64,000 nucleotides of DNA, from NCBI GenBank assembly GCA_031213475.1, contig JARUPZ010000016.1, positions 6,689,046 to 6,753,045 of the forward strand. The letters run 5' to 3'. The notes beneath the pieces are model-generated. The model was not told the origin of the DNA and made no database searches. It was given only the letters and a program-made list of their open reading frames with translations. The stretch is from Nereocystis luetkeana. Taxonomy: Eukaryota; Sar; Phaeophyceae; Laminariales; Laminariaceae. Positions 980-55,662 of this stretch are shown one piece after another (position 1 is the stretch's first letter; every line of letters begins with the position of its first letter). The position numbers and the translations under genes were made by a program.

Positions 980-3900
980 ATGTCAATCGGGCAGTACCTG
1001 CTGAACAACCCGCACAAGAAATTGCTGTACAACCCCCTTGCGGCGGAGTTCGGCATCAACGACATGGCTCAGATGAACGATTTCGTGCGGAACCAGATGC
1101 CCAAATTCAAGATGGTAAGAAAACGCTCAACAGAAAAAAAAAACGGTGCCCGTACACGCAGCTGTATACACGGGCCCCCTATGTATGGATGTACCCCTAT
1201 ACATAATATTATATTACAGTATGATGCGTTCTACGATAGTGGTAGCACATTTCCGCTAAAACGTTTTCTGGATGACGGGGTCCCTTAACCCAAAATCGTC
1301 AGAATGTCAAAATCTTGTTTCGAAAGATGGCGTTTTTTGTGTACTTGTGCCATGGAATTATTCATGGAGAAGCAGTTTGGGTTTTGCTGACGTCAGTTCG
1401 GATGAGGTATGGAGCTCGTTAAGTGGGGGACCTCAGAAAATTTAGAGTGAACCTATATGGTAGAACGCCTCTTATATTATATCAGGTATATTATGTATAT
1501 ATACCCTGGTATACCCTCTGGCGGATTGGTTTAATAACGCTTGACGCTGTTACTGTAGAACCGCAGTCCCGTTTCGGGCACAAGAAACTTGGAAATTGAC
1601 TGGTTTGTCCCCAAAACGGGGCTGCAGTCCTTGTTTTTAGTGTGCTGTTTTTTGTTTGTTTTTTTATTTTTTCTTGTCCATTTCTTCGATTGACAGTTTG
1701 TTCGTTTTTGTTGGTATGTTTGTTTGTTGTTGTTTTTTTTTCTTGTTCAGGTGTTGCTGACCGAGCGCTTCGATGAGGGGCTGGCGCTGCTACAGCGAAT
1801 GCTGAAGTGGGACCCGATCGACATGACGTACTGCAAGATGCTGCAGACCAAGAAGGGGGAGACGCGATGGGACGGGAAGCCTCTCGAGAACGTTCCGAAG
1901 ATCGCCGACCTGCCGCCGGAGGTAAGTCCCGCGTTACCGGCGAGGGGGTGGGGGGGGGGGGGGTACTCATTTGTTGCTTGCCTTAGTCATTCGACCATTT
2001 GCCACGCATCGCTTTCGAGGCGGAGCACCGTTCCTACTCCTAGTAGAGACACCTCTCAACATTTGGGCGCTCAGTACGTTAGTTCCATATATTACATAGA
2101 AACTTTTTACGAATCTGATTCTGTTTGGCCGCCTGTGGCCGCCATATATCTCCTGGGATAGCGATCGTTTTCACGCTACTATTAATATCTGTTGTACCAA
2201 ACTCCTCCGAGTCACTTCCGTTCATTTCCCTCATTCCTTCTTGTAACACGTCTCGTTCCTCCTTTGTGCATTTCACTTTCGCCTACTTCGTATGTGAGTT
2301 ACACTCTCCATTGTTCTGCCACACGGGCATGTCTATCTGTGCATCTACTTCCTCCTCCTCCCGGCTACTGGTATACCTGGTACCTCTTTCTCCTTTCTGG
2401 CAGGCCCAGGTCCCCTATACGAAATCGCAGTTTCTTTTTTTTGCGCGAAATCCATTGGGCCGTGCAAATACGTTCGCATTCTTGTCCCTTCGCTTAGTTT
2501 CATTCTTATCGGAGAGCGTTTTTTCCATAATTTCCAAAGTTTGGAAATAATTGGAGATATGTATCAATATACGGAGGCGTTCTGTCACTATTCGTGAAAT
2601 TCTCCGGAACCAAAAATAACAAGTTCGTTAACATTCCAATATTTGGGAAAAAAAACCCAGGAAAATATGGAAGATTGAAAAATTGCGCGAAAAAAATGTC
2701 GAAAATTTGGAGAAAAAAGCTCTCCGATAAGAATGACCCTTAGTCCTCCATATGTCTCTTGAGTGTTTCTCCGATTCCACCTTGTTTCTCAGCGCTGGCC
2801 TTTGCTTTCTTCTGCTTCTGCGTTGTACCTCCCAAACGTCTCTGCGGGCATCATCTCTCCTCGGTTTCCTCCTACATCCTTCCATATTTTCTCGGCTACG
2901 CTCTCCCACCTTATTCCAGCTCGCCCTTTTGTTTGTTTCTCCCATGCAGTAGTCTTATCAACTATGGCTGGCAACGTCTTATTTTGACATGTGCCTTACT
3001 TTGTATTGCCATTTCAGCTTTTTCGTGTCTCTTGTGTGTTTTGAGTGGGTGCGTTCCCAGTGCTGCTCTTAATACTGTACTATTCGTCGTACTTGAGCAT
3101 CTTGGTATTTTTTTAGCCGCTATCGTATGCACTGCTTCCAACTGTTTTACAAACTTCGCTTCCCCTTCCCATACTTCTCCTGGATATTCTACTGTAGCTT
3201 TGGTACTATCACATTCATCTGGATACATCTGTTACTCCTAGTGTCAAGATGCGAGTCTGCTAGGATCGCATCCATCTCGCCCACGTGTGCTTTTGCTTTA
3301 CCCTTTCCTAACACTTTTGCTGCATGTGTATCCCAAGAGCGGTCTTTTGAGATATCTACGCCAAGGGACGTATACTGGTCTACGATCGGCAATTCATCGC
3401 CTCCCAGGGGAGGGGTGTACTCGATAGGAGGGATGTACTCGATCTCACGCATGTCCGTAGTCGTATGACCATAGACCCTCGTATCCTTACAAATCCGGGA
3501 CGGAGCATGTCGGGTTTTCACCGACCAGGCAGACATTGCTTGCTTGTACCAAGCGCGTCTCCCAGGGGGGGGGGGGGGGGTACTCATTTGTTGCTTGGGG
3601 AGGGGGGGAGCTCCCCGTGTATAGATGTGTGAATGTGTGTGTTGCTCACATTTACTGTAGTGTAAACATGCAACCTGTTTAGCATGGGGTGTGTGTTCTT
3701 CACCCGTCGACACCAAGCAGTGCCCGTGCTTGTGGTTCATCCTTGCGAAGCTCCCGCTCTGTGGTCACAAAACACAACACATGCCTTGATACCAGATATT
3801 TAATACATAGTAAATGCATCTTGTTTAGATCAGATATATTTTCTACCGTAAGCATTCGTATAGTACCAGATACGATTGTCACAGCACTATTAATAGCACA

Positions 3901-6900
3901 GTTTTTTGTGTACCGTTCAGGGATATACAAATATGCCGTTCCAGCTACCGGCGTGAGATTTTTTTATAGGTGTTTTTTTTTCATCATCATACGAGTATCG
4001 TTCGGCTATTTATGATTACGGGGGACCATACCCTGGTAGTTAGTAGGACCTGTCGTACACATAAAAACCTATATAGTTCACCATTCCTACTAACAATATT
4101 TGGTCCTATTAACTATGGTCCCCCGTAATAATACCACGGGTACTCGTACTTGTTTTTTGTGTGTGCCGTTCGGGTAGCATATTGATAAATTGTGTACCAG
4201 GTATACAGTATGATAGCACCAAGTACCACTAACTGTGCATGTTGAGTGTGTACTCTACGGCAGTAAGAGCTGCTGTTGAGGCAGGTATGGATGGCATGAT
4301 GCCAACGCAAGACATGCAGATATGCGCGAGCGCGTATCGACAGGCTTGCAGCGTTTCGGGCTTCGTTCGTCTCGATCAACCCGCAACAACGGGCGTGTTG
4401 GTGCTTGCCACTGCTGTTGCTGTTGCTGTTGCTGATGCTGCTGCTGCTGCTGCTGCTGTTGCTGCCGCTACTGCACTCTGCTACTGCTGCTGCTACTGAA
4501 CTGCTGCTGCTACTGAACTGCTGCTGCTGCTGCTGCTACTGAACTGCTGCTGCTGCTGCTACTGAACTGCTGCTGCTGCTGCTACTGAACTGCTGCTGCT
4601 GCTGCTACTGAACTGCTGCTGCTGCTGCTGCTACTGAACTGCTGCTGCTGCTGCTGCTACTGAACTGCTGCTGCTGCTGCTGCTGCTGCTGCCACTGTAT
4701 GTGCTACTGTGTACTGCTACTGTATGAGACACCCCCCGGGGCGAATATCCGAGCCGAGTTTCATCGAACTCAGGGGTGTGTGTACCCAAGACGAAAATGG
4801 TGGCTCTGGAACGATCTCGTCGGGACCGGTTGCGTGATAGACGCATCGGCCAACGTTTGTTTGCACCTTTTTCCGCCACTGCTGTCGAGAGAATCGGCCT
4901 TGAGATTCGCCCGAAGGGGCGTGGCATGTTGTTTATCATGCGTGCTGCATGTACGGTACCGCCAATACCGCTGTTGCTGCTACTACTACAACCGTTTAAC
5001 CCTTTCAGAGCCGCAGTCCCGGTTTGGGGAAAAAAATACTCAAGAATTCGAGTGGTTTTTGTACCCAAAACGGGACTGCGGTTCTAAAGGGGTTAAGACT
5101 GCAGTCCCGTTTCGGAGACAAAAACCACTCCAATTCTAAGTATTGCGGGGGACCACAGTAAATACCTGGTAGGACGTATGGTACGCACAAAAACCTACCA
5201 GGGTATACATTCACCTATTTTTAGAAGCAATAGTTGGTCCTACTAACTGTTGTCCCCCGTGATAGTTAGTCCCCAGAACGAGACTGCAGTATCCGCACGC
5301 GCTGGTGTTGCTGTTGCTGCTGCTGCTGACCAGAACCAGGACCAAGGGTGATGTGTGTGTATGTGTGTGTGTTTTTCTGCATCAGTGTTGACTTTACGTA
5401 CGTATCGAGCCGTCGCTTTCTCCCGACGTTTTGTTTGTTCGTTTGTTTGTTTGTTTGTTTGTGTGCGTTTATGTTTCTCTGACTCTCTGTGTTTATACAA
5501 GCGTCTGCTTTAAACGTTTCTGCAGTGCTAACACCGACATTCAACAACAGGGTTCTGGGGGGGCCAAACAACAGTAATCAGAACCCACGATAGACCCAAA
5601 AGCCATGTATTCCTCTATATGTATTTTTTTGGCCGTATTGTGGTGTTGATTACTCTGTCGTGTGTGTGTACGTGTGTGTTCCGTTATCGCGCCCTCTGCA
5701 TCGCGCAGATTCTGGCTCATATCAAGGCGAGGACTCAGCTCGACACAAGGCTGTACCAGGCGGGCATCCTCCTATACCGACAGGTGACGATGAGCCGCCG
5801 GTCGATGAGGGAAAAAAAGAAAAACGGGCTGTTTTTTTTTTGGTTCCGATAAAAATGGAAGGCACGAACCTGAGGTGTGGGGAAAGCCCCCCCCCATCGA
5901 TCAGAAAAAAAGTATTTTTGGCCCAAACGTGGTACGACCCCTGCCGAAGAACGCCTCATTATCCCCGTTCGGCGTTCTCACTGCAGAGTCCCAATGGGCG
6001 CGTTGACCCTTTTACAGTAGGGAAACAATTGACCGCGGTCCCGTCTTGGGGACGATAGTTAATAGGACCTGTGGTATACACAAAAAGCTATATATTTAAC
6101 CATTTTTACTAACAAGATTTGGTCCTATTAACTATGGTCCCCCGTAAAAATAGGAGGGTCATTAACGGGGGGGGTGTTTTTTTTTGTTTGTTTGTTACTG
6201 TAGTGGTTGTTTTTGTTGCTGCCCCTGCCGCGGTTTGCTTTTTGTTGGTTTTGCTTGTTGTTGGCGTTCGCGGGGTCGCGGGGGTTGAGGGGAACTCGTT
6301 GTGGGTTTTCTTTGTCGCGGATAGTTGGCGTTGTTCCTATTACGGGGGACCATAGTTAGCAGGACCTATGGTATACATGAAAACCTATATGTTTAACCAT
6401 TTTTACTATCAATGTTTGGTCCTGTTAACTATGGCCCCCCGTAATAGTTGGTCAGTTGGTTGGTTGGTGTTTTGGGCTGTTGTTTTTTTTTTTTTTCAAT
6501 ATAACGCCGGACCATCCTGCAACTGCGACATCAACGAGCAAGCATTTTTTTTTGCAATATACGTACGCGGTCACCGTAGGGGCACGTCTTCACCCTCTCC
6601 CTCTGACTGACCCGCCCCCCGCCCCCGCCGACACAGACATGCCTGATTTCATTTTACCAACATACCGTGTTGCGTCCTTTACTGCGTTTGCGGAGGCCCC
6701 TTACTGCATCCACGGACAAACTGCGCATTAATGTGGCCGTTTTTGTTGCTCAACAGCAACAGCAGCAGTAGCAACAGCAGCAGCATGCTCGATCGCGACA
6801 ACTCCCTCCAATCACCACGTACTTCGCGTGCACGGCCCCACCTTCCGCCGCTCTCTCAAACCAGTACAAGCTAGAGTTCGGGGTCGGAGTCGACGAGCAC

Positions 6901-8671
6901 TTTCAAGCCTTCCAGGGGGTGCAGAAAGTCATGCACAGGTATGTCCCCGGCAACCCCGGGGTTTCCCGCCGGGGTGGCGTTATTTTTGTTGACCCGATTT
7001 CACCAGAGCACACGCCCGTTTTTTTTGGGGGGGCAAAACACTTGGAATTAGACTACTTTAGAACAAGAAATGGTGAGAGGTCAAACGATTTTACTTTAGT
7101 GCGCCTGTAGTTACCGTTGACGCACCGGTAGTTACCGTTGGCGCACCGTCCGTCCGTTACATTTTGTACGAGGGAAGGCGCGAGCTTTTATCTTGGAACC
7201 ACCAAAAAAAAATGTACCAGGTTGTTTACCCCGGTCCAACAAACATGACATTTCTATGTAGGCCAGTAGGGCGGAATCAAGTGTCGGTTTCTTTTTCACT
7301 GCCAACGGAGTTAAACTTATCAGGAGTCACGGGGCTCTGCCCAAGGTGCATTGCGATCAGAGGCGAGACGAGGGGACGGACAAGAAAAGGAGACGCTCAC
7401 TCTCGAGTGCCGTTGGACGTGCGTGGATGCTGCGCCTGGCCACAGCAAGAAGCAGAGACGGCACTACACCGCCCGCTGCCGAGTGATGGGCCTCGACTGC
7501 TGCTGAAGGTCTACTTCTGCGGTTTCTTCGTGAATAAGTTTCTAATTTCACGCCGCACCCTTATTGCTAAGTCTACACCGCGCCGAAAAATGGGATTCTA
7601 CTCCGGAAGAAAATCGGTTTATAATTCTACGCCGCGCCGAAGACTGTTTTTTTTCTACTTTTTTTACACCCGCGCCGAAAAAGCAGGTTGATGTATCTAC
7701 ACCGCGCCGGAAAATGGGTTTCTACTTTTATCGCCCCGCCGAAAAAATACACGTGATATTTATAAGTCTGCACCCCCGGAAAGTGGGTTTCTGCATGGAC
7801 AACGCGCCGAAGAAATAGGTTCATAATTTTTCACCGCGTCAGGAATTTTTCACACCCCCCCGAAAAATAGCCTTGTAAGTGTACACGCTTCGATTACCTA
7901 CTGTGCTTAAAATACATACCATCATACCTGGTACCACGATGTTCGGTTATATATTAATAGTGACGTTTAGGTGTGAAAATGGCATCAAAGCACTCCTTAT
8001 TTTTACGGACACAGTGGTACTTATCCACCAGCAAAAAACATGTATGACTCGAGCCCTAAAACTACTGCCCTACTTTTTACCCCAACCGCCTGGGGAGTTT
8101 TCTCGGAATGAGTGTGGTTGATGTAGTGAGGAGGGTTGGTTTGGACTGTCAACTTTTTCGTCGAGCCTGGGCCCAATGGAGAGAGAGAAAGAGATGGGCC
8201 TTGTCGCAGTACTCTCTACCTTTTCGCTGCTGTCAATCGTGACATTTTTTTTTTAGACTTTCGCTGCGCTCAACAATAGCATCGCGCGCAGAGTTTAGGG
8301 TGGAGTTGCTTCCCCGAGTGACGCTTGCGTTGGAGAGAGAGAGGGAAAGGGAGGGAGAGGGAGGGAGAGAGAGAGAGAGAGATAGAGAGGTGTTATAAGG
8401 TTCGATTCAAGTGCTTGGGGGTCTGACAAATCGCAAGCACTACTGTGTCTGCCCAAACGCCCTATCCTAGCCTCCCCCCACCGCGCCTGACCACACCCCA
8501 CCTCCCCCCCCCCCCCCTGGATATTGCCTCGCTCTCCGCCTTCTTATTACCTGTACGGTGGTTTCGGGTTCACACAGATACCTGGACGTAAACTCGTCCA
8601 GCGATGCCCTGCACTGGTACGTGGGCGATGTGGACATCTACGACCACGGGCCTCCGGTGCTAAACTTCTAG
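980..8671 (+). CDS. Galactose-3-O-sulfotransferase-like protein, 3' part (5 exons)
   Basis: The exons are 980-1114, 1751-1921, 5709-5783, 6865-6938 and 8578-8671 (stop TAG 8669-8671). All junctions are GT-AG and the phases agree (0, 0, 0, 2), giving about 182 residues. The second exon carries LLTERFDEGLALLQRMLKW, which resembles the EYFDESLVLLKRLLCWEL block of the Gal-3-O-sulfotransferase family (membrane-bound Golgi enzymes that move sulfate from PAPS to galactose on glycans). The third exon has a matching TQLDTRLYQAG helix. The N-terminal PAPS-binding P-loop and membrane anchor are not in the window, so 980 is an internal exon start, although it happens to begin with ATG. Exons 4 and 5 join in frame but are less family-typical; they could belong to a lineage-specific C-terminus. 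In a brown alga such an enzyme could sulfate fucan-type polymers, which is inference. Introns 1, 2 and 3 hold MITEs and LINE debris. Confidence 0.6.
1222..1487. repeat. Diverged dispersed repeat D, copy 1
   Basis: About 265 bp here aligns with 13796-14058. Shared blocks include TAGCACATTTC, CTTAACCC, AATCTTGTTTCGAAA and GAGGTATGGAGCTC. The copies differ by many substitutions and small indels, so the repeat is old. The class is unknown, with no terminal repeats or coding signal seen. It lies in intron 1 of the sulfotransferase-like gene. Confidence 0.55.
1551..1632. mobile_element. Family P (piggyBac-like) MITE, diverged
   Basis: An inverted-repeat hairpin with left arm GAACCGCAGTCCCGTTTCGG and right arm CCCCAAAACGGGGCTGCAG. 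The outer CCCTTT/TTAA ends are eroded. See 23337-23433 for an intact copy. Confidence 0.55.
1965..3405 (-). mobile_element. Degenerate LINE (non-LTR retrotransposon), 3' part of ORF2
   Basis: On the minus strand the fragments read, in order: SLGVDISKDRSWDTHAAKVL, then DAILADSHLDTRSNRC and NVIVPKLQ (near 3370-3190), EGEAKFVKQLEAVHTIAAKK (near 3160), AIVDKTTAWEKQTKGRAGIR (near 2960), TYLHGPMDF (near 2470), EERDVLQEGMREMNGSDSEE (near 2260) and finally SRNGAPPRKRCVANGRMTK at 2035-1980. This is the region C-terminal to the reverse transcriptase domain of a LINE ORF2. The catalytic part is absent, so the copy is 5'-truncated or interrupted at the family B copy next to it. The ORF stop is followed by GAGTACCCCCC (G run at 1946-1963). 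Several frame changes occur, one due to a 7-bp insertion at 2374-2382. A MITE is inserted at 2497-2739. The family match is from memory of LINE proteins, not from a search. Confidence 0.75.
2497..2739. mobile_element. PIF/Harbinger-like MITE, copy 1
   Basis: This 243-bp AT-rich element has inverted ends (GTTTCATTCTTATCGGAGAG on the left, GCTCTCCGATAAGAATGACC then C on the right). It is flanked by TTA on both sides (2494-2496 and 2740-2742), the 3-bp TWA-type target duplication of PIF/Harbinger transposons. A second copy with the same TTA flanks is at 49667-49906. No transposase is present. It sits inside the LINE, so it arrived after the LINE. Confidence 0.75.
3407..3605 (-). mobile_element. 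Family B 3'-end copy followed by a LINE 3' tail
   Basis: 3412-3552 is a 5'-truncated family B copy (GTACTCGATAGGAGGGATG and then the ATGACCATAGACCCTCG block). At 3569-3602 lies a C-run tail (G run 3568-3586) joined to TACTCATTTGTTGCTTG, which is the complement of the LINE end CAAGCAACAAATGAGTA. Two retroposon ends thus abut within intron 2 of the sulfotransferase-like gene. Confidence 0.65.
4015..4129. mobile_element. Family A MITE, with 8-bp insertion
   Basis: Ends are ATTACGGGGGACCAT on the left and ATGGTCCCCCGTAAT on the right, with the usual family A interior. Relative to other copies, the left arm carries an extra CCCTGGTA at 4031-4038 that turns a TA into TACCCTGGTA. Confidence 0.85.
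4425..4700. repeat. (CTG)n microsatellite with ACTGAA interruptions
   Basis: CTG tracts are broken at regular intervals by ACTGAA or ACTGTA, giving a higher-order period of about 21 to 24 bp. The long Leu/Cys/Ala frames across it are products of the repeat. It lies in intron 2 of the sulfotransferase-like gene. Confidence 0.9.
4996..5141. mobile_element. Family P (piggyBac-like) MITE plus half copy
   Basis: 4996-5096 is a complete hairpin: TTAA, CCCTTTCAGAGCCGCAGTCC on the left, and GGGACTGCGGTTCTAAAGGG then TTAA on the right. 5097-5141 repeats one arm (GACTGCAGTCCCGTTTCGG) directly after it and is a second, partial copy. TTAA target duplications with CCC ends are typical of piggyBac transposons. 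Confidence 0.75.
5142..5263. mobile_element. Family A MITE, with two short insertions
   Basis: Ends are ATTGCGGGGGACCACAG and TGTTGTCCCCCGTGAT. Compared with uninterrupted copies it has an extra CCTGGTA at 5165-5171 and an extra CCAGGGTA at 5198-5205, both placed exactly after a TA. The copy is longer than the 107-bp norm for that reason. Confidence 0.85.
6003..6147. mobile_element. Family P remnant joined to left-truncated family A MITE
   Basis: 6003-6053 holds one arm of a family P hairpin (TTGACCCTTTTACAG, later GCGGTCCCGTCTTGGGGAC). It runs directly into GATAGTTAATAGGACC, the inner left arm of a family A MITE that then continues to CCCCCGTAA. The outer left end of the family A copy is missing, so the two elements were fused by deletion or by insertion next to each other. 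Confidence 0.65.
6339..6445. mobile_element. Family A MITE
   Basis: Complete copy with ends ATTACGGGGGACCATAG and ATGGCCCCCCGTAAT and TA on each side. It lies in intron 3 of the sulfotransferase-like gene. Confidence 0.85.
8330..8395. repeat. (GA)n / GGGA microsatellite
   Basis: GAGA and GGGAGA repeats in intron 4 of the sulfotransferase-like gene. Confidence 0.85.
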
Positions 8672-12292: not shown

Positions 12293-13586
12293 TCGCAGGA
12301 ACTGCTAGGTTGTTGTTGTTGGCGGCGGCGGCGGCGTCTTATGTGAGAGGACCCAATTCTCTCGATTTTCTTGCGGTCCTTCACAGCCCGCACACCAAGC
12401 CTTAGACTTGGGAGTTTCCATGTTCGGAATCGACCTGACATTGGAAAATGGAATTGAAACTGGATTGTGATGATGGGGAGTTTTGGGTTGGGCTTTTGAT
12501 GGATGGACGAATTTTGGACTGGTGGGATGAGACCGGAGCGTTGGTCGTGTTCCGTGGTGTAATTGGTGGGTTGGTGCGACACAGGTCAATTGCTTTGCTG
12601 CCAGAGAAAGAAAATCGAGTGGTGTTGGATATGCGGCTACCTTGAAAAGGAAGGGGGTGTAATCATCTCAGGCATGGCTGTAGTCGTAAGCCTCTAGATC
12701 GTCGCATCAAAATGAGGGAGGGGGGGGGGGGGGCTTACTAGTATGCTGCTTACCTTGGTCGTTTGACCATTGACCACGTATCCCGTTCGAGACGGGGTAT
12801 CAAAAGGCGGAGGGGGGGGGGGGTTCGGAGATTCTTATCGAATCTCAAGAACTCTCACATACCTGGTACGAGTATTTTTCAAGACAGAATATGTTTTTTT
12901 AAGACTGTGAAAAGATCCCGGAAGTGTTGAATCGGTTGCGTGATGAGAAGATTGTTATGGAGAGAAAATATCGTGCGCCCGTCCTTCTCTCCGGAAATTT
13001 GCACACGGCACGGGAATCCTCGTCCCTCTTTCATGGTTTCGTCCGTCTTGCTGTTACCGGCTCTTTTTTTGTTTTCGCCGAAACTTCGTACCTGGTGCGT
13101 CGTCACTTCGGTCCACACACACCCCCAGCCCGCCCGTTGTGGTGTGGCACTGGTGTTTTGCTGCGTTGGCTTTGCGGGTAAGGGGGGGAGGCCGCATACT
13201 GTCGGGGCGCACACAGGCGTTTTGTAGCTGTCCGTAGGAGTAGCAGCGGCAAGAGGAACAGTAGCAGCAGCAGCAGCAGCAGCAGCGGTAGAAGCAGCAG
13301 CAGCAGCAGTGGTGAAGCAGCAGCAGCAGCAGCAACGGTAGAAGCAGCAGCAGCAGCAGTGGTAGAAGCAGCAGCAGCAGCAGCAGCGGTAGAAGCAGCA
13401 GCAGCAGCGGTAGAAGCAGCAGCAGCAGCAGCAGCGATGGGCAGCAAGAACGCTTGGCCGACTGAGACAAGACACCGCATAACCACGGTGAGGCACCGCA
13501 TGTCTCCAGGTGGCGCTTCTCCTTTTTCGGTGGGGCGGACGGTTCCATACCCTCGCGAGCAGACAGTCGATTCCCGCAGTTCACGA
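12293..13586. other. Gene-poor region with LINE tail and trinucleotide repeat
   Basis: 12735-12797 is the complement of a LINE 3' tail (on the minus strand CGTCTCGAACGGGATACG, GGTCAATGGTC and then AGTAAGCCCCCC). 13225-13437 is an (AGC)n repeat. A 65-codon frame at 12448 (tryptophan-rich) has no support beyond its length. No gene was recognised. Confidence 0.5.
13225..13437. repeat. (AGC)n microsatellite with GGTAGA interruptions
   Basis: AGC tracts are separated by GGTAGA or GGTGA about every 30 bp. All long frames across it (poly-Ala, poly-Ser, poly-Leu, poly-Cys) are repeat artefacts. Confidence 0.9.
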
Positions 13587-16337: not shown

Positions 16338-17686
16338 ATTATTTTGTTTTATTTAGGGTATAGGTCATAGAAAACAACAGATTACACATCACAACAACTG
16401 AAGTACATCGTACACCGAAGATATCAGGAGTAAAACGTGCGCTGTCAAGGATGTAGGGCCGATGTTCCAAACTAAAACCTATAACAGGTACTGTACCACA
16501 GTAGTTTGGTGTCAGTCGAGACATGTCGAGGCAAAGTTGCTGTCCGTCAAGGGGTGAAAATGCGGTCTCCTGACATACTTGCCGTACACCCCAAAGAAGG
16601 AAAAATGGAATCACTGTGCGACATGTATGCATAAATACGTACGTACTACTGGTACGTACAAGCACAGAGCGTACGAGTGTACGCATGAATGTGTACTTAC
16701 GTACGAGTTTCTACACAAGAATTGTGCAACCGATGGACCACACACGCATACGCGGAGAAAAAACTGTGTACGTATGGCCCCTATCATTGGTTCAAAATAG
16801 GCCCAAATCAGTTGAACGTTGAAAGCTAGACGGAGTACTTGTACATAAATCAGGTAAACCCTTGACCAATTCGAACCAAAATCAGTGACGATGTCAGTCT
16901 GGCCAATAGCAGGGCTCCTGGCGTGTGTTTTGAACTTGTTTCTGGTATAATTGATTTTGGCCTAAAAATGACCAGGTATACCTGATTTTGGCTAAAACTC
17001 TTTCTAAAACAAGCTCCAACAGTGGTCAACTGCTTGTACAGCAACGGTGGCGACATGCACTCACCGAGGAGATAAGGGCAGAGACAGCGGCAGAAAGTTG
17101 CCACGGCGTCCGCCTCTTCGCCGATGTAGGTTGCACGTCTGTTTGGAAGGTTGAACGCAAGCCGGCCTTTCCTGAAAGCGAACAGACGCAGCATCTGCGA
17201 CACCAAAAAAAATACCTGGTACACAATACGGACAGCATTCAGCGTAAGAAGGATGCAAAACAACCACAAGAATATGTTTACGTCGATGAGGTGTTTGGCA
17301 CTCTCGACGCCGACATGGCCATCGGGATAAGCCGCCTGCAGATAATCACTCCCCAACTGCACGCTACAGGGGTAGCGCTATGCGGTTGAACTGCTGTAGT
17401 TGAAAAACCTTTAATGGGCGAGACAGAAAAGTAGAGTATCCGTGGCAGACGTCTACCAGACAACTCCAGCAGTACAACAGCACAGCAGTACCCGTAGGAC
17501 TGAGACACCGAGAAATCCCACGAACGTCCAAGGCTCTTCAGTGCACGTAGCTTCAAAACGGCTGTATGTGTAGCAGATAGCATTGGAGTTGTTGTAGATC
17601 TGCATGGCCTATTATACACACATGGCACCAAATGAGACCAGGATACCAGGTGGGCGTTCGGCGGTTCCTGCGGAGGGTTGATCATA

Positions 17687-18310
17687 TTTCTGCGCCTCCA
17701 AGCGAGAGTAGGGTGTCAAATGGGATGGGTCAAACGACCAAATGGGAAAATACAAGGTGATGTAACATATACGTGCCAACCTACTGCTGCTGTAAAAAAA
17801 AAATTCAACCCTTTTAGAACCGCAGTCCCGTTTTGGGGACAAACCACTCAAATTTCAAGTTTGAACGTACGTACATTTTCTCCGCTGGTGGCTGGAGAGA
17901 GTACCAGGATGTCCGTACGTGAAAAAAATCAAAGTTCAAAATTCAAAAATGCAGCCCGTTTGGGTTTTTTAATGTATGCCGTGGAGCATAAAAAAACTCG
18001 TACAACATGTATTTCTGAACCTCCAAGTCGGAGCCGGGTGTCGAATGGGATGGGCCCACTGCGGGGTCAAAGTACCAAATGGAAAAACACCAGGTGATGC
18101 CTAACATACGTATCATACAAACAAACATACTGCAAAAAATCTCCGCCTGTGGATGTAGAGTACAGCAGTACCAGGATGGATGTACGTATACACGTACCAG
18201 GTACGTAATACTCGTACGAAAAAAAGATGCTCGAAGCAAATTCAAAATGCAGCCCGTTGGGTCTTCAAATTTATGCCGTGGGGTAAAAAAAAAACTTGTA
18301 CAACAGGTAC
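17687..18310. repeat. About 325-bp diverged tandem duplication
   Basis: Blocks TCAAATGGGATGGG, ATGCAGCCCGTTTGGG and TATGCCGTGGAGCATAAAA in the first unit recur about 325 bp later with changes. A partial family P MITE arm (17806-17866, CCCTTTTAGAACCGCAGTCC) interrupts the first unit only, so it inserted after the duplication or was lost from the second. Confidence 0.7.
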
Positions 18311-18873
18311 ACCAGCAGGGCATCACAAAATGAAGAACGCAGCAGTGATCTCCTTGCTGCTGTGGGTCTAACAAGAGGGATAGAATTAGGTGGCGAGAAG
18401 GAAATCTGGTAGCATCGCTCCGATTGGCTAGGAGAGCTATCACTGATCAGACGTACAAAAAGCGTGACCCCCTCGTACGACACCGCAGCCGCAGTACCAC
18501 GAGTAGTAATAGTCAGGGGGACCCACTGCTGTATATATCACGCGGTCCACTCCAAGCTATGATGTGTTGCCCACCCACAAGGAAAGTAGCATTCGAGTAC
18601 TCTCACCTTGGGATAGCTGCCATCAACGCTGTCGCTGGTCGTCTAGTCCATGGAGAGAGCTGTCCTCTCCAGCTCTCCAGTCTCGTCCATTTCGAAAAAG
18701 GCTTCTGTTTTGGAGGGACGCTCGCGTACTGCTGTACCTGGTACCTGGTAGTTGTATTTCAAATTGTCGGCCTAGGTGCCCCTCCACGCCCTCACCCACA
18801 GCGTTTCGACTCAATGATTTCACATGCTCAGAGCTACGAGTATATGCGACGGGAATGTGTATATCGCCTGTAA

Positions 18874-29961: not shown

Positions 29962-31376
29962 TCACATGAGCTGCCCGAGGAACTCGGCGCGAGGGTAACG
30001 AACGGAGCAGCTCCGGCCAGTGAACCCACGAAGCGATCCGCAAGGAGGTACATAACACGACCGGTGAGGCTGAGCGATTTGACGCGGCAGAAGCTCTCGC
30101 AGAAGACGGTGCGAGAGGTCGACCCCAGCCCGAGCACACGCAGCGAAAAAGCGGCCACACACACGGGGATGCACGTTCCCTGCAAACAAGGTTTGAGGGC
30201 AAGCGCGTGGGATTGGGGGGGAGGGGGGGGTACTCGTTCATCATGCACGGCCGTAGTCATACGGCCATAGGCCCTCGCATCCCTGCAATGCTGGGGGCGG
30301 AGCACGTCGGGCTTACACCGACCAGGCAGACACATTGCTTGCACGATATCACGCATCGCCGTAGTCGTATGACCATAAAGACCCTCGCATCTCTGCAATG
30401 TCGAGACGGGACACGTCGGGTTTTCACCGACCAGGAAGACATCGCTTGCACCAAGCGCGAAGCGCCGTGGGGTGTCTGGCGAGTCGCATAAAGGGTGTGC
30501 TGCATGCTACTATAATGGGGAGAACAATGTGGTGTGTAAAACATTAAGGGGGAATACTTGTTTTTGGGGTCTATCGTGGGTTCTGATTCTCACTACAGAA
30601 GCCCACCCCGTAACTGTATATAATAGTGACGACGGGGGACGGGGGAGCGGGGGGGAGGGGGGGGGGGGGGGGTGGGAGGGGTGTACTCGATATCACGCAT
30701 GGCCGTAGTCGTATGACCATAGACTTCTCGCATCCCTACAATGCTGGGACGGAGCACGTCGGGTTTTCACCGACCAGGCAGAGATTTCTCTGCACCAAGC
30801 GCGAAGCGCCGTGTGATGAGGTGTTCGGCGAGTCGCATGAAGGGTACCAGGTACGCCGCGTCCTACGAAGAACCACTTGTGAGGCGGCCTTACACATGGA
30901 TGACAGCTTCGATGACTCAGTTAACTTGGAGCGGGAGGTGGTGGGGGGTGTACTCATTATCATGCATGGCCGTAGTCGTATGACCATAGACCCGCGGGAG
31001 GGGGGGGGGGGGGGGGGGAGGGGTTAGGGGAGCGAGTACAAGAACAAAACACGTATAGTATGCATAGTGGTGAATGATACGTGCGGCGACACGATCGAGG
31101 AGTTGGGCTCCAGCACACAACACAAAACAGAGCAAACAAAAAATCATTTTTGAAAAAACAAAAACAAAAACGACGAGCAATAAAAACACGCGTATTCTAC
31201 CCCAGATAGATGTTGAGGGCCCTTCCTATCTTCAAGGAATCGGGTGTAAGTTGAGGACAGGGCCACGGACATTGTGGTCAGCATGACGATAGTTGCCTCC
31301 GCCTCTGCCTGGACCCCACCCCACCGAATAGCCCGCACGAAGACCCGGCAATACACGAAGGTGACCCCTCTCCTCG

Positions 31377-31435: not shown

Positions 31436-34400
31436 CCCATCCCGCCAAGCTTATATGGAAACCCCTAGGGTCGTCATACATGTTTCCATCAAATACGCCA
31501 AAGGCTGCGAATACTTCCAATGATGATGATTTATACCGTACCGGTACGTACACTTTCTACTTTCCAAGGTCCCATTAGCGTACAACTATGAACGGAAAGT
31601 TGTGCATCCAGTAGAAGAGCCGCACCACGACCAGCCCCGCCTTGGTAGCGTGACCTTCGCGAAACCGACGGACGGACGGACGGAGGGACATATCTCATAT
31701 CTACGGAACAGAAAAAGTCGGAACCCCCCCCCCCCCGACAATTGTGCGTATTTCTTTTCGGACGAACAGTAGTGACGCGGATATCAAAAGCAGACGCACA
31801 ACTTGGCAATTCCATGTACGTACTTCGAAGTTGTCACATGTATGTGTAGGTTTGTGTTTTCGTTGTTTCTGTTTTCGGACAGTAAAGTCGGACCACAATC
31901 GGACAGAAAGCCTGAAAAAATCTACATTTATTTTTTTTGGGAGTTTGTTTTCTTTTGGTTGGCCCCTTCTCTGTCCTCACCGGGGCCGTTGACGAGGACG
32001 AGGTCCGGCCGAAGCTTGACCACCATGTAGGCCGCGTGCAGGCCAGCGAGCAAAGTCGTGAATACTGACGTCAGGTACGACTGCCCCACCTGCTTGCGCC
32101 GCGGGTCCACATCGATCGATCCATCGATTTCGGCGAGGATAGTGGTTGAACAAATAAAATATTACGTTTATTCACATGGTTTGATTGTGGTTGCTTGAGG
32201 GGTTGATGACCGCTGTGGCGCGGAAAATGGTAGAGAGCATGAACCGTTACATTCATTCATATGGTTGATTGTGATTGCTTGAATGGTTGATGACAAGATC
32301 GCTTCGGTGCGGACTAAGGGTTGAAAAAACGAACGCCAAATCCCACTCATAACTGAACGATACAGTGGGTTCACATTCCTGCCAGTATGTTTTTCGTTAC
32401 TCGGGAAAAGGTTGAAGAAGTGGTTGCGTTTTTCTTTCATCCCACCTCTCGCTCCACTGGTCTTACATCTTAGCAAAACCAACCCTGGTTTCAAGCCGGA
32501 AAAATCGAGAGCTGCATAGAAACCTCGGCCCAGCTTCGACAAGGTGGGCGCAGCATTGGCCCTAAAGACCCCAACCCCTAACCCCGACCGCTCGAGAACA
32601 TTCTCGGAACGAATCCGTAAAAAAGAAGAGTTAGCATGGAATATCAACCATTCCTTTGAAGCTGTATAGTCCGGGAAAACAAATATGCGCACCTCAAGAG
32701 GAAGGTGCCAAGAAAAGGTATTTGCCATGAAACGTTATTTTTTGGGGGGTTCACTGTGGGCCGAGTCGTAAACACTCGTACTGGTGCCGAATACTGACAC
32801 GGGAGAAAACGACCGCGAGAGCCCAGTGTGACAGCGTTGTCGGGGCGCGCACAACACAATCTATGAAAGGGACCTCATTTTTTCGCGCGATTTTCCCTCT
32901 TCAGACACAGCAGCACGCGCTCGATATTGTTTGCAAAAAAAAACGACAACAAATTAAGGTTTTAGCCCTCTGCTATATTCGCGCCCTCTTTTATTTATGA
33001 GCTCCATGCTGATTGGCTTCGTCTTATGTAATACTGTCCGTCGTTCGTCAGCAAGGGCTAGGTTGGGTTTGTTTCAGCGCACGGCGTGCTTAAAGCTGTG
33101 AGGCTGTCAGCGCTTTTTCTCCCCACATCAGATAGCAACCAAGAATAGTGACACCATTACCCCCCCCCCCCCCTCTCCAAAACCTCTCCCCCTTTGGTCC
33201 ACGCAAAGGACAGCTATTCAGCAGTGACACTCACGTACAACAAACGCGTGAAAACGAAACAGCGACGCAATCCAAGCTAGGTAAAACAGCAGTTGTATTA
33301 GCAATGCCACATGTATGTACAGTAGTACCACGCTGTATGCAGCAGCTACTACAGTAAGTAACTGGTACTTGCTCCCTTTCGCTCGTATCACTCAACCAAC
33401 CTGCATGGCATAGCATGGCCATGCTATGCTATACTAAAACCATGTTGTACCATACAACACCATGCCATGCCATGCCATGCCATGAACATGCCAGGCCGTG
33501 CCATACCAGGTCATACCACGCCATATCATGCCATGCCTTGCTAAGCCGTGCCGTGCAATTCTTCACCATGCCATGCTACAAACTGCTACCAGGTATTGTG
33601 CAATACTGTGATATAATATTCGGTGTCATACCACACCAACCCATTCCATACCATGCCATCTAAATCCACGCAACGGCATGACATGCCATCCCATCCCATA
33701 CTATGCCACACCACACCACACCACACCACACCATACCACTGCCCGTTTTCGTTCTCACCTCCCTGCTGCGAGGGATGGTGCAAAGCCTGCACCGTCCCGA
33801 CCGCAGCCCCTCCTGGGGTATCCGCTTGGCACTTGTGTGGTCCGAGCCGGCCACGACGTAGCAGAGGGGCGTGTACGTCTCGGGCGGGAGGGTGGAGGTT
33901 AGCTTCAGCATCTCAGAGGTATGCCCGCCTATTTTTTTTTTTGGGGGGGGAGGGGTGGGTGGGCGAGGGGGGAGGGGGGGTCGGTGTTCTGTTGGAGGCG
34001 GTGGGACTGTTAGGGTGCTGGTTTATGCAATACCAGGTCTTCAGTTGGCGAGAGGGTTGAGGTCAGCTTCAGCGTCTTAGAGGGGTGTCCATCTATTTTA
34101 GGGGAGGGGGGTTCAGTCGGAGACGATGAGATTGTTAGGGTGTAGGTCAGCTTCAGCGTCTTAGAGGGGTGTCCATCTATTTTAGGGGGGAGGGGGGTTC
34201 AGTCGGAGACGATGAGATTGTTAGGGTGTTGGCATGCCTTGTATGTAATACCACGTTTATCGTCATGCTTAGCGAGAGGGTGGAGGTTAGCTTCAACATA
34301 TCAAGAGGAGGCATGCCCGCCCATTTTCGGGGGGGGGGGGGGGGAGTTGGTGTTCCATGGGAGTCGGTGTTCTATCGGAGGCGGTGAGAATGTTATCATA

Positions 34401-35476
34401 CGAGTACGAGGAGGTTGTTGGTATAAGTATGCAACATCTACAATGGTAAGTCGGAACACGCGGAGGGTTGGGGAGCTTAGAGGGTATATATATACCAGGT
34501 ATATACCATCGTACTACTGTAACTGTACCGATCTTGTTTCATACCAGGTATTTTCTCTGCGGTGATCGATGTGTGTACCGCAACAGCTGCTACTCTATAA
34601 TAGGCTAGGCCACGACCACGACTGTTGCTGCTGCTTCTGCTGCTTCTTCTGCTGATGCGGCGGCGGCATGCCACCTGGTACGTCTTTTGCATTGCAGAGG
34701 GAAAATTTGGGAGCAATCAGGTTGAGAGGTGGAAGCAATCGGTCGTGTTTCGACGTACAGCGTTCGACGTAGCTGACGGCGCGGCCAAGACTGCTTGGTG
34801 TGGCGCACTATTAATATTAATAGCTGCGGTACTGCGGCGCTACACTACGTTGGAACGGTGCGCCAACAGCAGTAATCTACCGGGTTTCACTTCGTCCTGT
34901 TGCTGTCTACAGTCAGCTAGCCAACCAGCCAGCCAGTACGCAAACCGCAGCGGCGGAGGAACAGCAGCACGCCAGCGGCAAAGTGGAGGAACGCGTGAGC
35001 CGGGATAGACCCCCCCGCCACTCCACCAGCACTTGCTGTGCTGATAAAAGGGAGCACGTTTTGCGCCGAAACTCGGAAGGTGGAAACGTGGAAACAGCCA
35101 CGATTCACGGACAGCGCCGCTGACGAACTGTAAAGGTAATCTACAGAAGCTCCTCGAAGACCCTGCCTCTCTCTCCCACCCCTTACCCTAGGGGATGCGG
35201 TCGTGTGGACAGCGGAGACAAGCAGCAAGCATCGCAGTCGCAAAGTCAGCGGCCGTGTTTTTCCGTTGGAACGCATACTTTTGACCCACCTGATCCCAGG
35301 ACGACAAGCGTGTTGACAGTCCTGTGCGGAGATCTCTTTTTGGTTGTGACCTTCTTTTCAACAGCCGATTGCGCGCTCTGTTGGGGCACTCTTCGTCTCC
35401 GCCGGTACGGGAGTATCGACCACGCACGCCATACTAGGAGAATGCAAGCGGTAGCCGCTATCCAGGACAGTGTCAT
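29962..35476 (-). CDS. ALG14: ALG14, UDP-GlcNAc transferase membrane-anchor subunit (4 exons)
   Basis: ALG14 recruits ALG13 to the ER membrane to add the second GlcNAc to dolichol-PP-GlcNAc. Exons on the minus strand are 35476-35290, 33928-33759, 32089-31981 and 30179-29962. Exon 1 gives an N-terminal membrane helix (SWIAATACILLVWRAWSIL) and TVNTLVVLGSG. Exon 2 gives GHTSEMLKLTSTLPPETYTP, YVVAGSDHTSAKRI and TIPRSRE. Exon 3 gives VGQSYLTSVFTTLL and LRPDLVLVNGPG. Exon 4 gives GTCIPVCVAAFSLRVLGL, VFCESFCRVKSLSLTGRVMY and, in shifted frames, VHWPEL and YPRAEFLGQLM-stop. The order and motifs match ALG14 throughout. Junctions 1/2 and 2/3 are in phase. Exon 3 ends in phase 1 but exon 4 needs phase 0 (GGG at the acceptor), and two more +1 shifts fall at GTGGGTT (near 30030) and CGTTACC (near 29998). 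Each is explained by one extra base in a short homopolymer. Whether this is assembly error or decay is open. The ATG at 35474-35476 is the first in frame before the helix. Confidence 0.85.
30213..30520 (-). mobile_element. Family B copy with internal duplication
   Basis: After G runs, 30231-30340 and 30347-30500 repeat the same CGTAGTCGTATGACCATA to GTTTTCACCGACCAGG block, so two truncated copies or one duplicated copy are present. It is in ALG14 intron 3. Confidence 0.6.
30632..31020 (-). mobile_element. Family B copies with G-run tails
   Basis: 30682-30935 is a family B copy (GTGTACTCGATATCACGCAT to TGACAGCTTCGATGA). It carries TACCAGGTA at 30845-30853 where other copies read GGGTGAGCTGC. 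30945-30995 is a second, short end. Long G runs precede and follow them. It is in ALG14 intron 3. Confidence 0.6.
31377..31433. repeat. Poly(C) tract of about 56 bases
   Basis: The longest homopolymer in the window, in ALG14 intron 3. No retroposon end is recognisable directly beside it. The exact length is doubtful in any assembly. Confidence 0.85.
33405..33750. repeat. Pentanucleotide CATGC/CATAC/CCACA microsatellite
   Basis: Degenerate 5-bp repeats (CCATG, CCATA, CCACA) run up to the end of ALG14 exon 2 at 33759. The donor side of the intron begins immediately before it. Confidence 0.85.
33890..34400 (-). repeat. Tandem duplicates of the ALG14 exon 2 start, in intron 1
   Basis: The segment GAGGGTGGAGGTTAGCTTCA then GCATCTCAGAGG, which on the minus strand is the first 40 bp of exon 2 with its acceptor, recurs with changes at about 34050-34095, 34146-34185 and 34270-34325. 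Each copy is followed by a G run and TTCAGTCGGAGACGATGAGA or a relative. The two central units (84 bp) are almost identical. In the copies the acceptor AG or the reading frame is altered, so they do not look spliceable. Confidence 0.75.
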
Positions 35477-47175: not shown

Positions 47176-48144
47176 CTGTGTTCTGGCGGCCTTATTCGCG
47201 CACGGCTTACTCTTCGCCGTGGTTGAGACGCAGCATATGCCCGCGACGGGAAAGCCATGCTAAGATGGCTGCCCCCCGATCTCGTGTCAATATCCGAAGT
47301 ATTGTACTGACTGAAGACCTCTCGTCTCGTCCATGCGGCATGACTCTCTCGTGAGCGAAGCGAGCAGGCGCCACGTGGGGGTTGAGGGGGGAACCACCCA
47401 GGCCACGTCGCTTCCCGGGCTTCAGGTGTCCCGCCCCACTTTAAGGCCTTTACCACTTCAGCACTTCGAACGACCTCAGCTTGTGAACGAGCCCGCTGGT
47501 GGAGTTGTCCTGCGTAAGGTTGCGGTGAGGCATCCGCCTAGAGGAACAAAGCAAGGAGAGCAAAACTTGTTCATTACGACCCTTCGAAAAGTCTGCAAGA
47601 GAACAAGGCTTCCTGTTGGTTTTCCTGTCCGTATATATTCGCGCGGCCGCTTCGCGCCTGCGCACATGTGTCGTCTGAAGCAAGGACATCGTTGGCCAGA
47701 GAAATGTCCGTGTTGCGAGCGAGGCAGCTGCCGCTCGGACGACGCGTGTGAGACTTTGCAAGCGCACGCACAAGAAGACGGACACAGATAGCTCTCTCGA
47801 AAGTTGTTGGTGGCACTGCACTACAGTAACGGAAAGCTCCCTGAAAGCTACCAGGTACAAGATACCTGTAGACACCTGTTGTGATAGTCGACGTAGCTAT
47901 GTGTTTTCTTCCATCCTTGTACGCCCCCTCTAGCAGCAGCGCCAGGCTTGAGGGTTCTTGGGTCAGCTGTCATCCATGAGGCGGGACCGGCCGTGGGCCT
48001 CGTGTCACTCTGCCCGGAAATGGAAGGACACTTTGGGTATTAACATGCAAGTACCCAAACGGTCATCACATGCCCGGGCATGATCTTCAACGGTAACGGT
48101 CACGTACAAACAATCGTTCGCATCATCCATCACTGGGGATCAAT

Positions 48145-49906: not shown

Positions 49907-49944
49907 TTAGCCCGTGTATCCTGGATGGGATCTGTACGATTAAT

Positions 49945-50052: not shown

Positions 50053-50456
50053 ACGTGCACTAATCCTGCACAAAATCTCTCATAACGGCACGCTAGGATC
50101 TAGATATATATGATCTGCATGTAGATCGCGATCTATCAGTTCGACGGGCGAATAAATGGGCAGAGTATCGCCTACCGCCGTGTCACACGGGTGATAAGAT
50201 AACACACCTTTCTCGGACGAATTCCCCAAGCTGAGTTTCACGACAACGGAAACGGCACACCTGCTGCTGCTGCTGCTGCCGAGCGACGATGCGTCCATGA
50301 AAATATCTCTACGATGTGCTTCCGAAACGCAAACGTTTTCGTTATGTGTGCCCGTGTGCCCCCCCGCCCCTGTTGTGAAGAAAATAGGCTCCAGAAATTC
50401 GTCCTAGGTACCTGGTATACGGTACGTACGGGCTACATAGAGCAGTAGGAACTACT

Positions 50457-50557
50457 ATTACGGGGGACCATAGTAAATATGACCAAATATTGTCAGTAAA
50501 AACAGGTAAATATATACCTGGTATGTTTTTGTGTGTACCGCAGGTCCTATTTACTGT
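50457..50557. mobile_element. Family A MITE, right-truncated, with 7-bp insertion
   Basis: ATTACGGGGGACCATAGTAA on the left. The right end stops after GGTCCTATTTACTGTG. An extra CCTGGTA at 50517-50523 interrupts the AAATATATAGGTTTTT block of other copies. Confidence 0.8.
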
Positions 50558-52705: not shown

Positions 52706-52746
52706 GGCAGGTCTGACGTTTACAAAGGGCGGCATGCGGCGATAGA

Positions 52747-52840: not shown

Positions 52841-55580
52841 TAACTGCACGGCTACTTTCCTTGGATTAGGAGAATGCGTTTTGTGGTTGTGGACGTGAAT
52901 CATTCACAAAAATTCGAGCGAACTATGTCAGCGCCGGGCGTGGGTCGCTGCTTACATGATCTCGTGTGCGTGTAGAAGAGGAGGGTGTACCTGGAAGTCG
53001 CCCTAAGGTCAGTGAGAAGGTGCGGGATCCGCGGTGCGATATAAACTGCTCAGCTACGTCTTGCTTCGGGTGGGAGTTACGACCTGAAAACATTGGAAGG
53101 AGGTAGATGCTGAATCGGGAGTAAGCACCTTATTGGTAGGGACAGCCCTTCGTCCCTCTCGTTATTGACGTAAACGTGGCGGAGTTAATTTGTACCGTGG
53201 GTGCGTGAAGACCCGCCATGCCTTGGGTGCTGTTTTCTCGGCGCGTGGGTGCAGTACGAGTATAAACGCAGGGTTGCTTTTCGACACTGATTCGCGTGTT
53301 TTTTTTTTCAATACCCCGGTAGAGGGTTTTCTCTGAAATTTAAGGGCTTTCGACTCGAGGGACTGCCGCGATGTCGCCTAACCCCCCGACTTGGGGTTGT
53401 GTTGGTGTTTGTGTCGTTCAGACGTAGCATTGTGGACTGACCCAGCCGCTCTCCACACTCCGTCGCGGCCGAAGGAAACAAAGGCGAAAGCGCTTCGACT
53501 CTGAATAGGCGGTGTCGTCGTGTAGCTTCGCTCGTTTTGCTACCAGGTATGCGATGATCTGACTGCTAGCAGACAAAGGAGGAAAGCTTTTTTTGTTAGA
53601 TCGGTGCAGCCATTCACTTTCCAAGTAGTGCTGTTGCGCTACTGCCCGCCTCAACGCCCCGATATTTCATGCAGGACTAGTGATGTTGGGCTAGTACTGC
53701 ACGCCACAAACGTCCCGTTGTAAGCCTTCCCTCCGTCCCGAGGATGTCCGTGCTATCGCTTTTGCTTGAGAGTCCCGCCTGACAAATCGAGCGTGGAAGC
53801 CCTCAGTGATGAGAAGCACTGCCGGCAACCTGATCCCACTCCGTCGTGATCCTACTGTAGGCCGATCCGGGTGTAGGACCGCCGCTTCGCGAAACAGTTC
53901 TACGGGGGTAGAAGGTGATGCGTTTCGGCGGCTTCGTCTTTGCCTCGGGACCACCCCCCCCCCCCCACATCTACCATCCTTCAGTCCCTCCTCTACCTCC
54001 TCCTCCTCCTCCTGTGGCTCTACGAATCGATGCTTGTTTTTTCTTCCTGAGTTGTAACCGAAAAGATTGGGAGCAGCGCAAGACAGCAAGGGCAAAACAG
54101 TCAGTGAAGGTGTCACGTTGGAGTTTACTGAACGATAAAGTGTATCTAGCATTTCATGCCTCTACCGCGGGCTGCCACGGGGCACCACGGAGGGTGCCGC
54201 ATGTGCGCCTGCTATTAATAGTAGCCGCCGTGAAAGTGCAAGCCTACAGGGGAGAAACCTATGGATGATGCTTACGTGCACGCGAGTGTGCGCGTGCACA
54301 CAGTTGTGCCTCACACCAGGCCCCTGTAGAGCTCCGTACGTTTTTTTTTTTTTTGTTTCTCATCCTGAAAGGAGATGTGGGTATTTTTTCTAGCTCGCGC
54401 TTGTGGTGGGGCCACAACAATCTGTTGTTGCTTAGCTCACGGCTACAGAACCCATGAGCATGCCCGACAACAAGTGCAGGTCGGGCGGGCTCGTCTTTGT
54501 CTACTGTTACGGGTGGGCAAATGTAGTAAGAATCAGAACCCGGGAAGGACCCAAAAACTTTTTAATCCCCCGATCTTTACACGCCATATTTGGTTGTGAT
54601 TACTACAGCGATATAAGCCCCCGTACTATTTATAGTCATGACAGTCACCGCCGTACGTGAACAAACGTGCGCAATGAAACAACGGAATTATGGCAAAAGC
54701 CTCGGGGTTGTCAGCGTCAGCGTCATTTTCTGGAGGCTTTCTAGGTGCCTCGTTATGTACGTGCCGCCGCACGTATGTAGATTTTGGTAGTCATGTTGCA
54801 TCGGCGTATGCACGACGTGCGCTGCCGGGTTATCGAGCAGGAGCCCTGTATGCTTTGTTTTGATTTGTAAAAGTGACAGTATTGCAGAAACATGCTATTA
54901 ATATGAGCATCAAGGTTTTGTGTAGGGGGGCTATACGAAATGCATATTTCAGCAGATTCCCGCCCCCCCCCCCCCCCTCGCTTGCCCCCCTGACTGCGGC
55001 CCCATGCAATATATCGGGTACACCGCCCCCCGCCCCTCCGTGGTCATACTACTACGGCCGTGAATGACATGAATACACCCCCCAGGTAGTGAATCGCACC
55101 TCGCTTTGACGCATTACAGTTAGCGCTACAGTAGTAGTCATGACGTCTGTCTTCCAATTCCCGGTTTGTCTTACGCCCCTCCCCTACGAAAAAGCAACCT
55201 AACTAGTGTGTGCGCTCGCGCGTTTAATGTTAGCTTGCTTGTTCACTTGTCCTCGGTTTTCCATCGACGATGTGCTTTTCGAGCCCTTCACTTCGTCCAG
55301 TCGACAACCAACCTCAACCTTCAAAGTATTGTCGCGCGTTGGACTGTCGATTTTTATTTTTATATATTGTTTCACATCAACCGTGCCCTTCATTGGGATT
55401 TCCAGCTCACTAGTGTAGCGTTTTTTTTCTGTTTGCCGGCTTCATAATTAGAAGCCTTCAACATTTTATTTGTGATTTTGTCTGATGCCTTTGTCCGATA
55501 CCAGATGGAGCGTTTGCCTCGCTCTCCTGACCCTTTTTACAGCTGCACAGTTACATACAGAAACGTAAATCCGGCTCTAA
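52841..55580. other. No recognised gene
   Basis: A 153-codon minus frame at 53691-54152 contains an acidic stretch (EPQEEEEEVEEGLKDG) coded by a (CTC)n tract. It is not accepted as a gene without more support. 54995-55085 holds two short family B ends on the plus strand with C runs. Confidence 0.35.
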
Positions 55581-55662
55581 TTCACACAAAAACCTACCAG
55601 GTATCTATGTCCCCATTTGTACCAAAAATATCTGGTCCTATTTACTATGCCCCCCCGTAAAA
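55581..55662. mobile_element. Family A MITE, left-truncated, with 7-bp insertion
   Basis: It begins in the CACACAAAAACCTA interior and ends TATGCCCCCCCGTAA. An extra CCAGGTA at 55597-55603 follows the CCTA. It lies about 175 bp beyond the P4-ATPase stop. Confidence 0.75.

Follow-up and report, generated by a model that had tools for sequence, protein, structure and literature searches.

Known footprints and the scar of Nereocystis

For Sleeping Beauty, PMC7827188 describes 3-nt 3' overhangs and footprints, made by non-homologous end joining (NHEJ), that are identical to these overhangs. In a stretch of 64,000 nucleotides of the brown alga Nereocystis luetkeana (contig JARUPZ010000016.1, positions 6,689,046 to 6,753,045; hereafter the window), a nine-letter word, TACCWGGTA, recurs at TA dinucleotides and is most probably the excision footprint of a cut-and-paste TA-target DNA transposon. 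Tc1/mariner footprints and the present scar are alike in the TA target, in its duplication and in the few terminal bases left after end joining. They differ in that the main scar has 5 nt (CCWGG) rather than 3, that the parent was not found and that there are about 182,000 scars. A 3-nt footprint of the Sleeping Beauty type would read TACWGTA, which is not the scar seen here.

Two other systems invite comparison. Pogo-like DDE_1 elements of this same genome, with the terminal inverted repeat CAGTACCGG (loci L035 and L038), have TA flanks, matching inverted ends and a DDE_1 match, but their CAG ends predict TACWGTA instead of TACCWGGTA, and TACAGTA is only 2.6-fold enriched. The TA-bound internal eliminated sequences of ciliates (PMC9942856) are likewise TA-bounded, transposon-derived and removed in large numbers; unlike in ciliates, the scar here remains in the assembled genome. 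No prior description of such a scar was found among the titles and abstract openings listed, a full-text literature search for TACCAGGTA gave unrelated titles among the matches listed, and the main text of a survey of Ectocarpus transposons (PMC12477816) does not contain the words 'footprint', 'excision' or 'MITE'. The mechanism, a TA-target transposon footprint, is of a known kind; the unusual features are the near constancy of the 5-nt scar, the number of scars and the lack of visible parents.

A word in excess, inserted at TA

TACCWGGTA occurs 19 times in the window, against a mean of 0.41 and a largest value of 3 in 100 dinucleotide shuffles. The original prediction, made from the letters of the window, had listed these same 19 starts and a chance expectation of about 0.5, and both stand, as do its four ten-mers (TACCCTGGTA at 1502, 4029 and 27968; TACCAGGGTA at 5196). 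The genome-wide count that it called for gave 182,395 occurrences against 1,744 of the reversed pattern, far from expectation, in a genome of 465,085,209 bases of which the window is a part. Further counts were made in a sample of 264 kb, composed of the window plus 20 further 10-kb stretches, with 2,500 bases of L012 reading N. Here the word occurs 96 times, with 2.4 expected under a second-order Markov model, and it is the top TA-N5-TA word, with 192 of 2,086 two-strand counts (runner-up 36). The spacer that separates TACC from GGTA is most often 1 nt long (125 cases; reverse-order control, 6). Both orientations occur, as had been noted, and the equal frequency of A and T in the middle of the word says only this. 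Taking the TA density from the sample, intact CCWGG scars occupy about 0.7% of all TA dinucleotides and about 1.3 Mb of DNA. Forms of the word with one substitution are also in excess (135, with 55 expected), as expected from neutral decay; the scars are therefore of some age, and 182,395 is probably an underestimate.

That the word is an addition at TA can be seen in MITE A, a family of miniature inverted-repeat transposable elements (MITEs). The MITE A profile has 29 matches in the sample, some of them partial, with 11 insertions of at least 3 nt relative to the model, 8 of which are 7-8 nt long. Seven of these eight are ACCWGGT-like or ACCCTGGT and lie at a TA kept plain in other copies, at model positions 15, 48, 48, 49, 49, 59 and 85; since positions 48 and 49 are one TA in two registers, four sites are concerned, and this one TA is filled in four copies. 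The five MITE A insertions reported in the original prediction are all present, at 4029 (model position 15), 5163 (85), 5196 (59), 50515 (48) and 55595 (49), and the profile alignment places the inserted word, as claimed, directly at a TA left unfilled in other copies; they occupy, however, four sites rather than five, one being a hot spot. With four sites filled, the word does not sit at the same position in all copies, and the copy at 5141-5263 bears two scar insertions. Empty copies have plain TA where filled ones have TA...TA, i.e., the target is duplicated, and the same holds in other repeats.

An independent, unguided gap scan of all repeat alignments of the sample (3,046 alignments, 289 insertion loci) returned the 7-nt scar class at 6 loci and its 8-nt form at 2; one more site, at 55598 of the window, has the 7-nt class in a shifted register. 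The scar is the commonest class of at least 7 nt, some shorter classes being commoner, e.g., a 6-nt class with 8 loci.

The scars of the window and the MITE A copies used as references are as follows (scars carry no strand and were located by word search unless another method is given):

2374..2382: TACCTGGTA scar
4195..4203: TACCAGGTA scar
5163..5171: TACCTGGTA scar within the MITE A copy 5141-5263 (word search and MITE A profile)
7925..7933: TACCTGGTA scar
12860..12868: TACCTGGTA scar
17213..17221: TACCTGGTA scar
18195..18203: TACCAGGTA scar
18735..18750: tandem scar TACCTGGTACCTGGTA, two words overlapping (word search; class counted genome-wide)
24830..24838: TACCTGGTA scar
30845..30853: TACCAGGTA scar in a repeat, absent from the other copies in 6 alignments (repeat alignments)
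33587..33595: TACCAGGTA scar
34493..34501: TACCAGGTA scar
34542..34550: TACCAGGTA scar
47849..47857: TACCAGGTA scar
50409..50417: TACCTGGTA scar
50515..50523: TACCTGGTA scar at the hot TA of the MITE A copy 50456-50558 (word search and MITE A profile)
53541..53549: TACCAGGTA scar
55595..55603: TACCAGGTA scar at the hot TA of the MITE A copy 55584-55660 (word search and MITE A profile)
1502..1511: minor product TACCCTGGTA
4029..4038: minor product TACCCTGGTA within the MITE A copy 4015-4130 (word search and MITE A profile)
5196..5205: minor product TACCAGGGTA, second insertion of the MITE A copy 5141-5263 (word search and MITE A profile)
27968..27977: minor product TACCCTGGTA
61664..61770, forward strand: MITE A copy without insertion, the empty reference, with ends TA|TTACGGGGG...CCCCCGTAA|TA (MITE A profile)
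60668..60780, forward strand: MITE A copy without scar, carrying another 5-nt insertion (MITE A profile)
6339..6446, forward strand: MITE A copy without scar (MITE A profile)

The strong excess over chance would also be expected of a functional host motif, such as a regulatory or methylation site, kept by selection and never inserted. Such a motif is hardly credible here, given that the word adds, at four sites of the element, 7-8 nt that other MITE copies lack, that tandem and nested copies occur, and that the one-substitution variants exceed expectation in the way that neutral decay predicts.

Target preference outside the word

The flanks of the scars (192 half-sites, compared with all TAs) are A or T in 83% of cases at -7 (p 5e-15), A in 54% at -6 (p 2e-18), A in 42% at -3, T in 40% at -2 and T in merely 4% at -1 (p 7e-12). 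Without the 51 of 192 flanks that are themselves scar-like, the preference persists as roughly W-A-N-N-A-T-A|TA and its mirror, the filter in itself lowering C and G there. The ten-mers share the preference at -6 (24 half-sites). A symmetric AT-rich preference outside the word, which the word itself is unable to create, is what an integrating dimer leaves as its trace, and it supports the view that the word is an excision scar.

Junctions at a natural reporter

The TA of MITE A that is filled most frequently, in the context AYAAAAACC-TA-TATATTTA, serves as a natural reporter of junctions (the hot TA). Genome-wide it carries the main product at 2,316 places (control 0) and CC followed by another sequence at 829 places (control 24). 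In 75 of the first 100 listed among these 829, a short insert is followed by a return to TA-flanked, AT-rich sequence: CCGG (23), CCAG (18), CCAGGG (11), CCATGG (5), CCAGGGG (3), CCACGG, CCAAGG and CCCTGG (2 each) and nine others. The remaining 25, left unclassed, include tandem scars, 4 copies of another repeat and a longer remnant, CCAGTCTGATGG. In the 264-kb sample, TACCGGTA occurs 12 times with 3.9 expected, an excess of about 8% of the main word, and the CCGG share at the hot TA is also about 8% (23% of 829 against 2,316, extrapolated from the 100 listed). The share of CCAGGG/CCCTGG is about 12% in the sample and about 5% at the hot TA.

Longer junctions bear on the ends of the parent. 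Among 50 listed places of a pattern with 5,159 occurrences (control 1,529), CCATGG was found 35 times, CCTAGG 5 times and CCAAGG/CCTTGG 10 times; the excess of CCATGG over CCTAGG suggests that the ends probably begin with CCA rather than CCT. The ends guessed in the original prediction, CC(A/C)...(T)GG, can thus be narrowed, the third base being probably A. Additionally, TACCAGGTGGTA, readable as CCAGG+TGG, accounts for 31 of the 50 TACCANNTGGTA places that were listed (967 occurrences in all, control 534), and the forms CCAGG+G, CCAGG+GG and CCAGG+TGG perhaps point to ends CCAGG. The junction series is footprint-like, though the ends of the parent are read from that very series. As an observation on the distribution of this reporter, the first 14 Mb of G000:C1 hold few hot-TA scars (6 of the 37 C1 matches listed), although the word abounds where C1 begins; this part may be poor in MITE A.

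An enzyme that adds CCWGGTA at a TA which never held a longer element (e.g., by aborted transposition or oligonucleotide capture) would make the 7-bp unit an autonomous micro-insertion, much like the ultra-short insertion that the original prediction offered as its alternative. The nearly constant product length speaks for it, as does the parent element not being found in the sample searches or among the hot-TA places listed. The minor junctions CC|GG, CCA|TGG, CCAG, CCAGG|G, CCAGG|GG and CCAGG|TGG, however, look like two trimmed ends joined, and an analogous scar in the same genome accompanies a resident transposon (see below). A micro-insertion is not favoured and appears quite improbable.

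The scars might also stem from several unrelated families with similar ends. Various TA-flanked families are indeed present (TTACGGGGG, CAGTACCGG with a DDE_1 gene, CGCGACAGC and GTACCGTAATC), and the unequal share of CCAGGG/CCCTGG in the sample and at the hot TA is in line with a mixed origin. Against it stand the single symmetric target preference, extending to the ten-mers at -6, and the equal share of CCGG in the two data sets, and we consider such a mixture improbable.

A second scar and its probable resident family

Another word, TATTAATA, occurs 63 times in the 264-kb sample, with 1.5 expected, and 93,112 times genome-wide, against 10,689 for the reversed pattern. Read as TA-TT-AA-TA, it is what MITE A (TA|TTACGGGGG) is predicted to leave as a 2-nt footprint. 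In agreement with this, a 6-nt insertion class at 6 repeat loci fits TATTAATA, with TATTAA in all 4 examples among the matches listed. The bases before the TA of TATTAATA are T, A and C at frequencies of.62,.59 and.52 (126 half-sites), and those before the TA of MITE A are T, A and C at.63,.63 and.70 (27 ends). This common TAC|TA preference identifies TATTAATA, very probably, as the 2-nt footprint of MITE A itself and makes it an internal positive control. All in all, it is very probable that this genome accumulates the excision scars of a TA-target family.

Similar to TACCWGGTA, MITE A (TA|TTACGGGGGACC) and its scar combine a TA target, a short scar and a high copy number, and in this family element and scar are both present with a common TAC|TA preference. 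MITE A differs from the TACCWGGTA case in its 2-nt ends (TT/AA), in its target preference and in the continued abundance of the element, with 29 profile matches in 264 kb. One MITE region, compared as DNA with plasmids, gave nothing, and neither did a scan of viral contigs with a MITE A end. Two examples of the second scar in the window, identified by word search and flanks and without strand, are:

2180..2187: second scar type TATTAATA, probable MITE A footprint
60129..60136: second scar type TATTAATA in its typical context TAC-TATTAATA-GTA

All starts of TATTAATA in the window are 2180, 3888, 7952, 23107, 25384, 26712, 34809, 34815, 54213, 54896 and 60129. No copy of either scar word lies between those at 34815 and 47849, and frames at 40276-43056 resemble, as judged by eye, cysteinyl-tRNA synthetase exons.

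Tandem scars, the missing parent and other points against excision

Several observations weigh against the excision of a single TA-target family, or at least complicate it. The first concerns tandem scars, TACCWGGTACCWGGTA, of which there are 15,917 genome-wide (control 2), about 12 times more than uniform hits on TA predict. Among 59 tandem pairs listed, 19 are of mixed and 40 of the same orientation. The mixed pairs indicate that slippage alone did not make the tandem scars; the same-orientation pairs exceed one half (p = 0.009), and slippage, an orientation preference or another second process may add to them. The two TAs of a scar are also 7 bases apart, in keeping with the preference at -7/-6, so that scars may attract further insertions.

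The second concerns the junctions. Orientation at the hot TA is skewed (25 CCAGG and 12 CCTGG among 37 C1 matches listed; CCAGGG 11 and CCCTGG 2), which may reflect amplified scar-bearing MITE copies that inflate the hot-site counts by some amount. A full join, CCAGG|CCTGG, was found once among 99 places listed, most of the others being a main scar beside TGGTA, and CCAGCTGG was found 0 times in the 264-kb sample and 4 times among the 50 listed TACCANNTGGTA places; the rarity of both makes any figure for the length of the overhang tentative. For the second scar, G at -7 stands at 56% for MITE A (only 27 ends) against 18% for TATTAATA.

The third concerns the parent itself. When the sample was searched for 18-nt inverted repeats bounded by TA and lying within 5 kb (at most 3 mismatches; 440 rows, all CC rows covered), the one CCA row among the CC rows was the interior of a MITE A, and none of the recurrent TA-bounded repeat starts in the sample begins with CCA. 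No recurring filled copy was seen at the hot TA among 100 of the 829 places or 100 of the 434 places listed; many of the latter (control 14) are main-product or multiple scars. Long insertions in repeats included no CCA-ended case among 90 of 227 listed. Of 12 DDE_1 loci examined, 4 have convincing inverted ends, none of them CCA (CAGTACCGG at L035 and L038, CGCGACAGC at L036, GTACCGTAATC at L033), and in 8 no convincing ends were found, their stretches being perhaps too short. PF03184 (DDE_1) has 28 matches, in pogo-like genes; PF13358 has 0 matches in the organism's own genome, and PF01359 has 0 in a search that had no working positive control. An element with TA duplications and CCA ends, one of the forms sought by the original prediction, was accordingly not found in the 264-kb sample, the hot-TA listings or the DDE_1 loci. 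With 0 found in 264 kb, a resident family would have about 1 copy per 100 kb or fewer, i.e., up to some thousands of copies, and this applies to elements that these searches can see. So many excisions with so few visible fossils are unusual.

Candidates were set aside along the way. The best 25 CCA...TGG pairs with longer arms proved to be a nested scar (L038), a large palindrome (L033), tandem scars and chance pairs, none of them a parent; L004:2587-2690, taken up as a CCAGTGC element, is low-complexity sequence and was rejected.

The DDE_1 loci have features of their own. L035:1936-4123 and L038:908-2885 combine inverted ends TA|CAGTACCGGCC with a DDE_1 match, which in L038 lies in an open frame of 542 aa with no stop inside the match, and the L038 element sits in a TA of a TACCAGGTA scar. 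L033:112-7094 is a 7-kb palindrome-like structure with two oppositely oriented DDE_1 matches and ends TA|GTACCGTAATCATGCG. Along with the enrichment of TACAGTA in the 264-kb sample, C is the preferred base before TA. A CAG-ended element would produce this pattern, to which local repeats may have added.

A possible mechanism

The excision reading put forward in the original prediction is supported by the filled and plain sites of MITE A, the symmetric target preference, the series of minor junctions, the occurrence of tandem scars in same as well as mixed orientation, and a second scar that fits a family resident in the genome. Insertion at TA would duplicate the TA, and excision would leave a few end bases on each flank, to be sealed by end joining; the usual sealed product would be TA-CCAGG-TA, which is TA-CCTGG-TA on the other strand. 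The parent ends would begin with CCA, perhaps CCAGG, and the protruding ends would pair with one central A:A mismatch to give the main product. In the CAG/CTG footprint of Sleeping Beauty, the ends pair with an A:A mismatch. CCAGG overhangs on both sides, pairing except for one such mismatch, would explain the near-constant product. The parent element would by now be extinct or rare. A bolder version, which we hold tentatively and regard as a possibility below even chance, is a 'ghost' TA-target transposon with ends CCAGG, cut about 5 bases inside, whose near-complete excision left about 182,000 intact scars, a number that decayed ones would raise, and hardly any fossil, its activity being readable from the scars only.

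What the scars offer

To our knowledge, excision footprints have usually been studied in small numbers. The present genome holds very many like events, together with a second family in which element and scar occur side by side, so that end-joining products, target choice and the ratio of excision to residence become measurable from sequence alone. Ordinary repeat annotation is likely to miss the approximately 1.3 Mb of scars, which also allow a transposon to be detected after its copies have disappeared.

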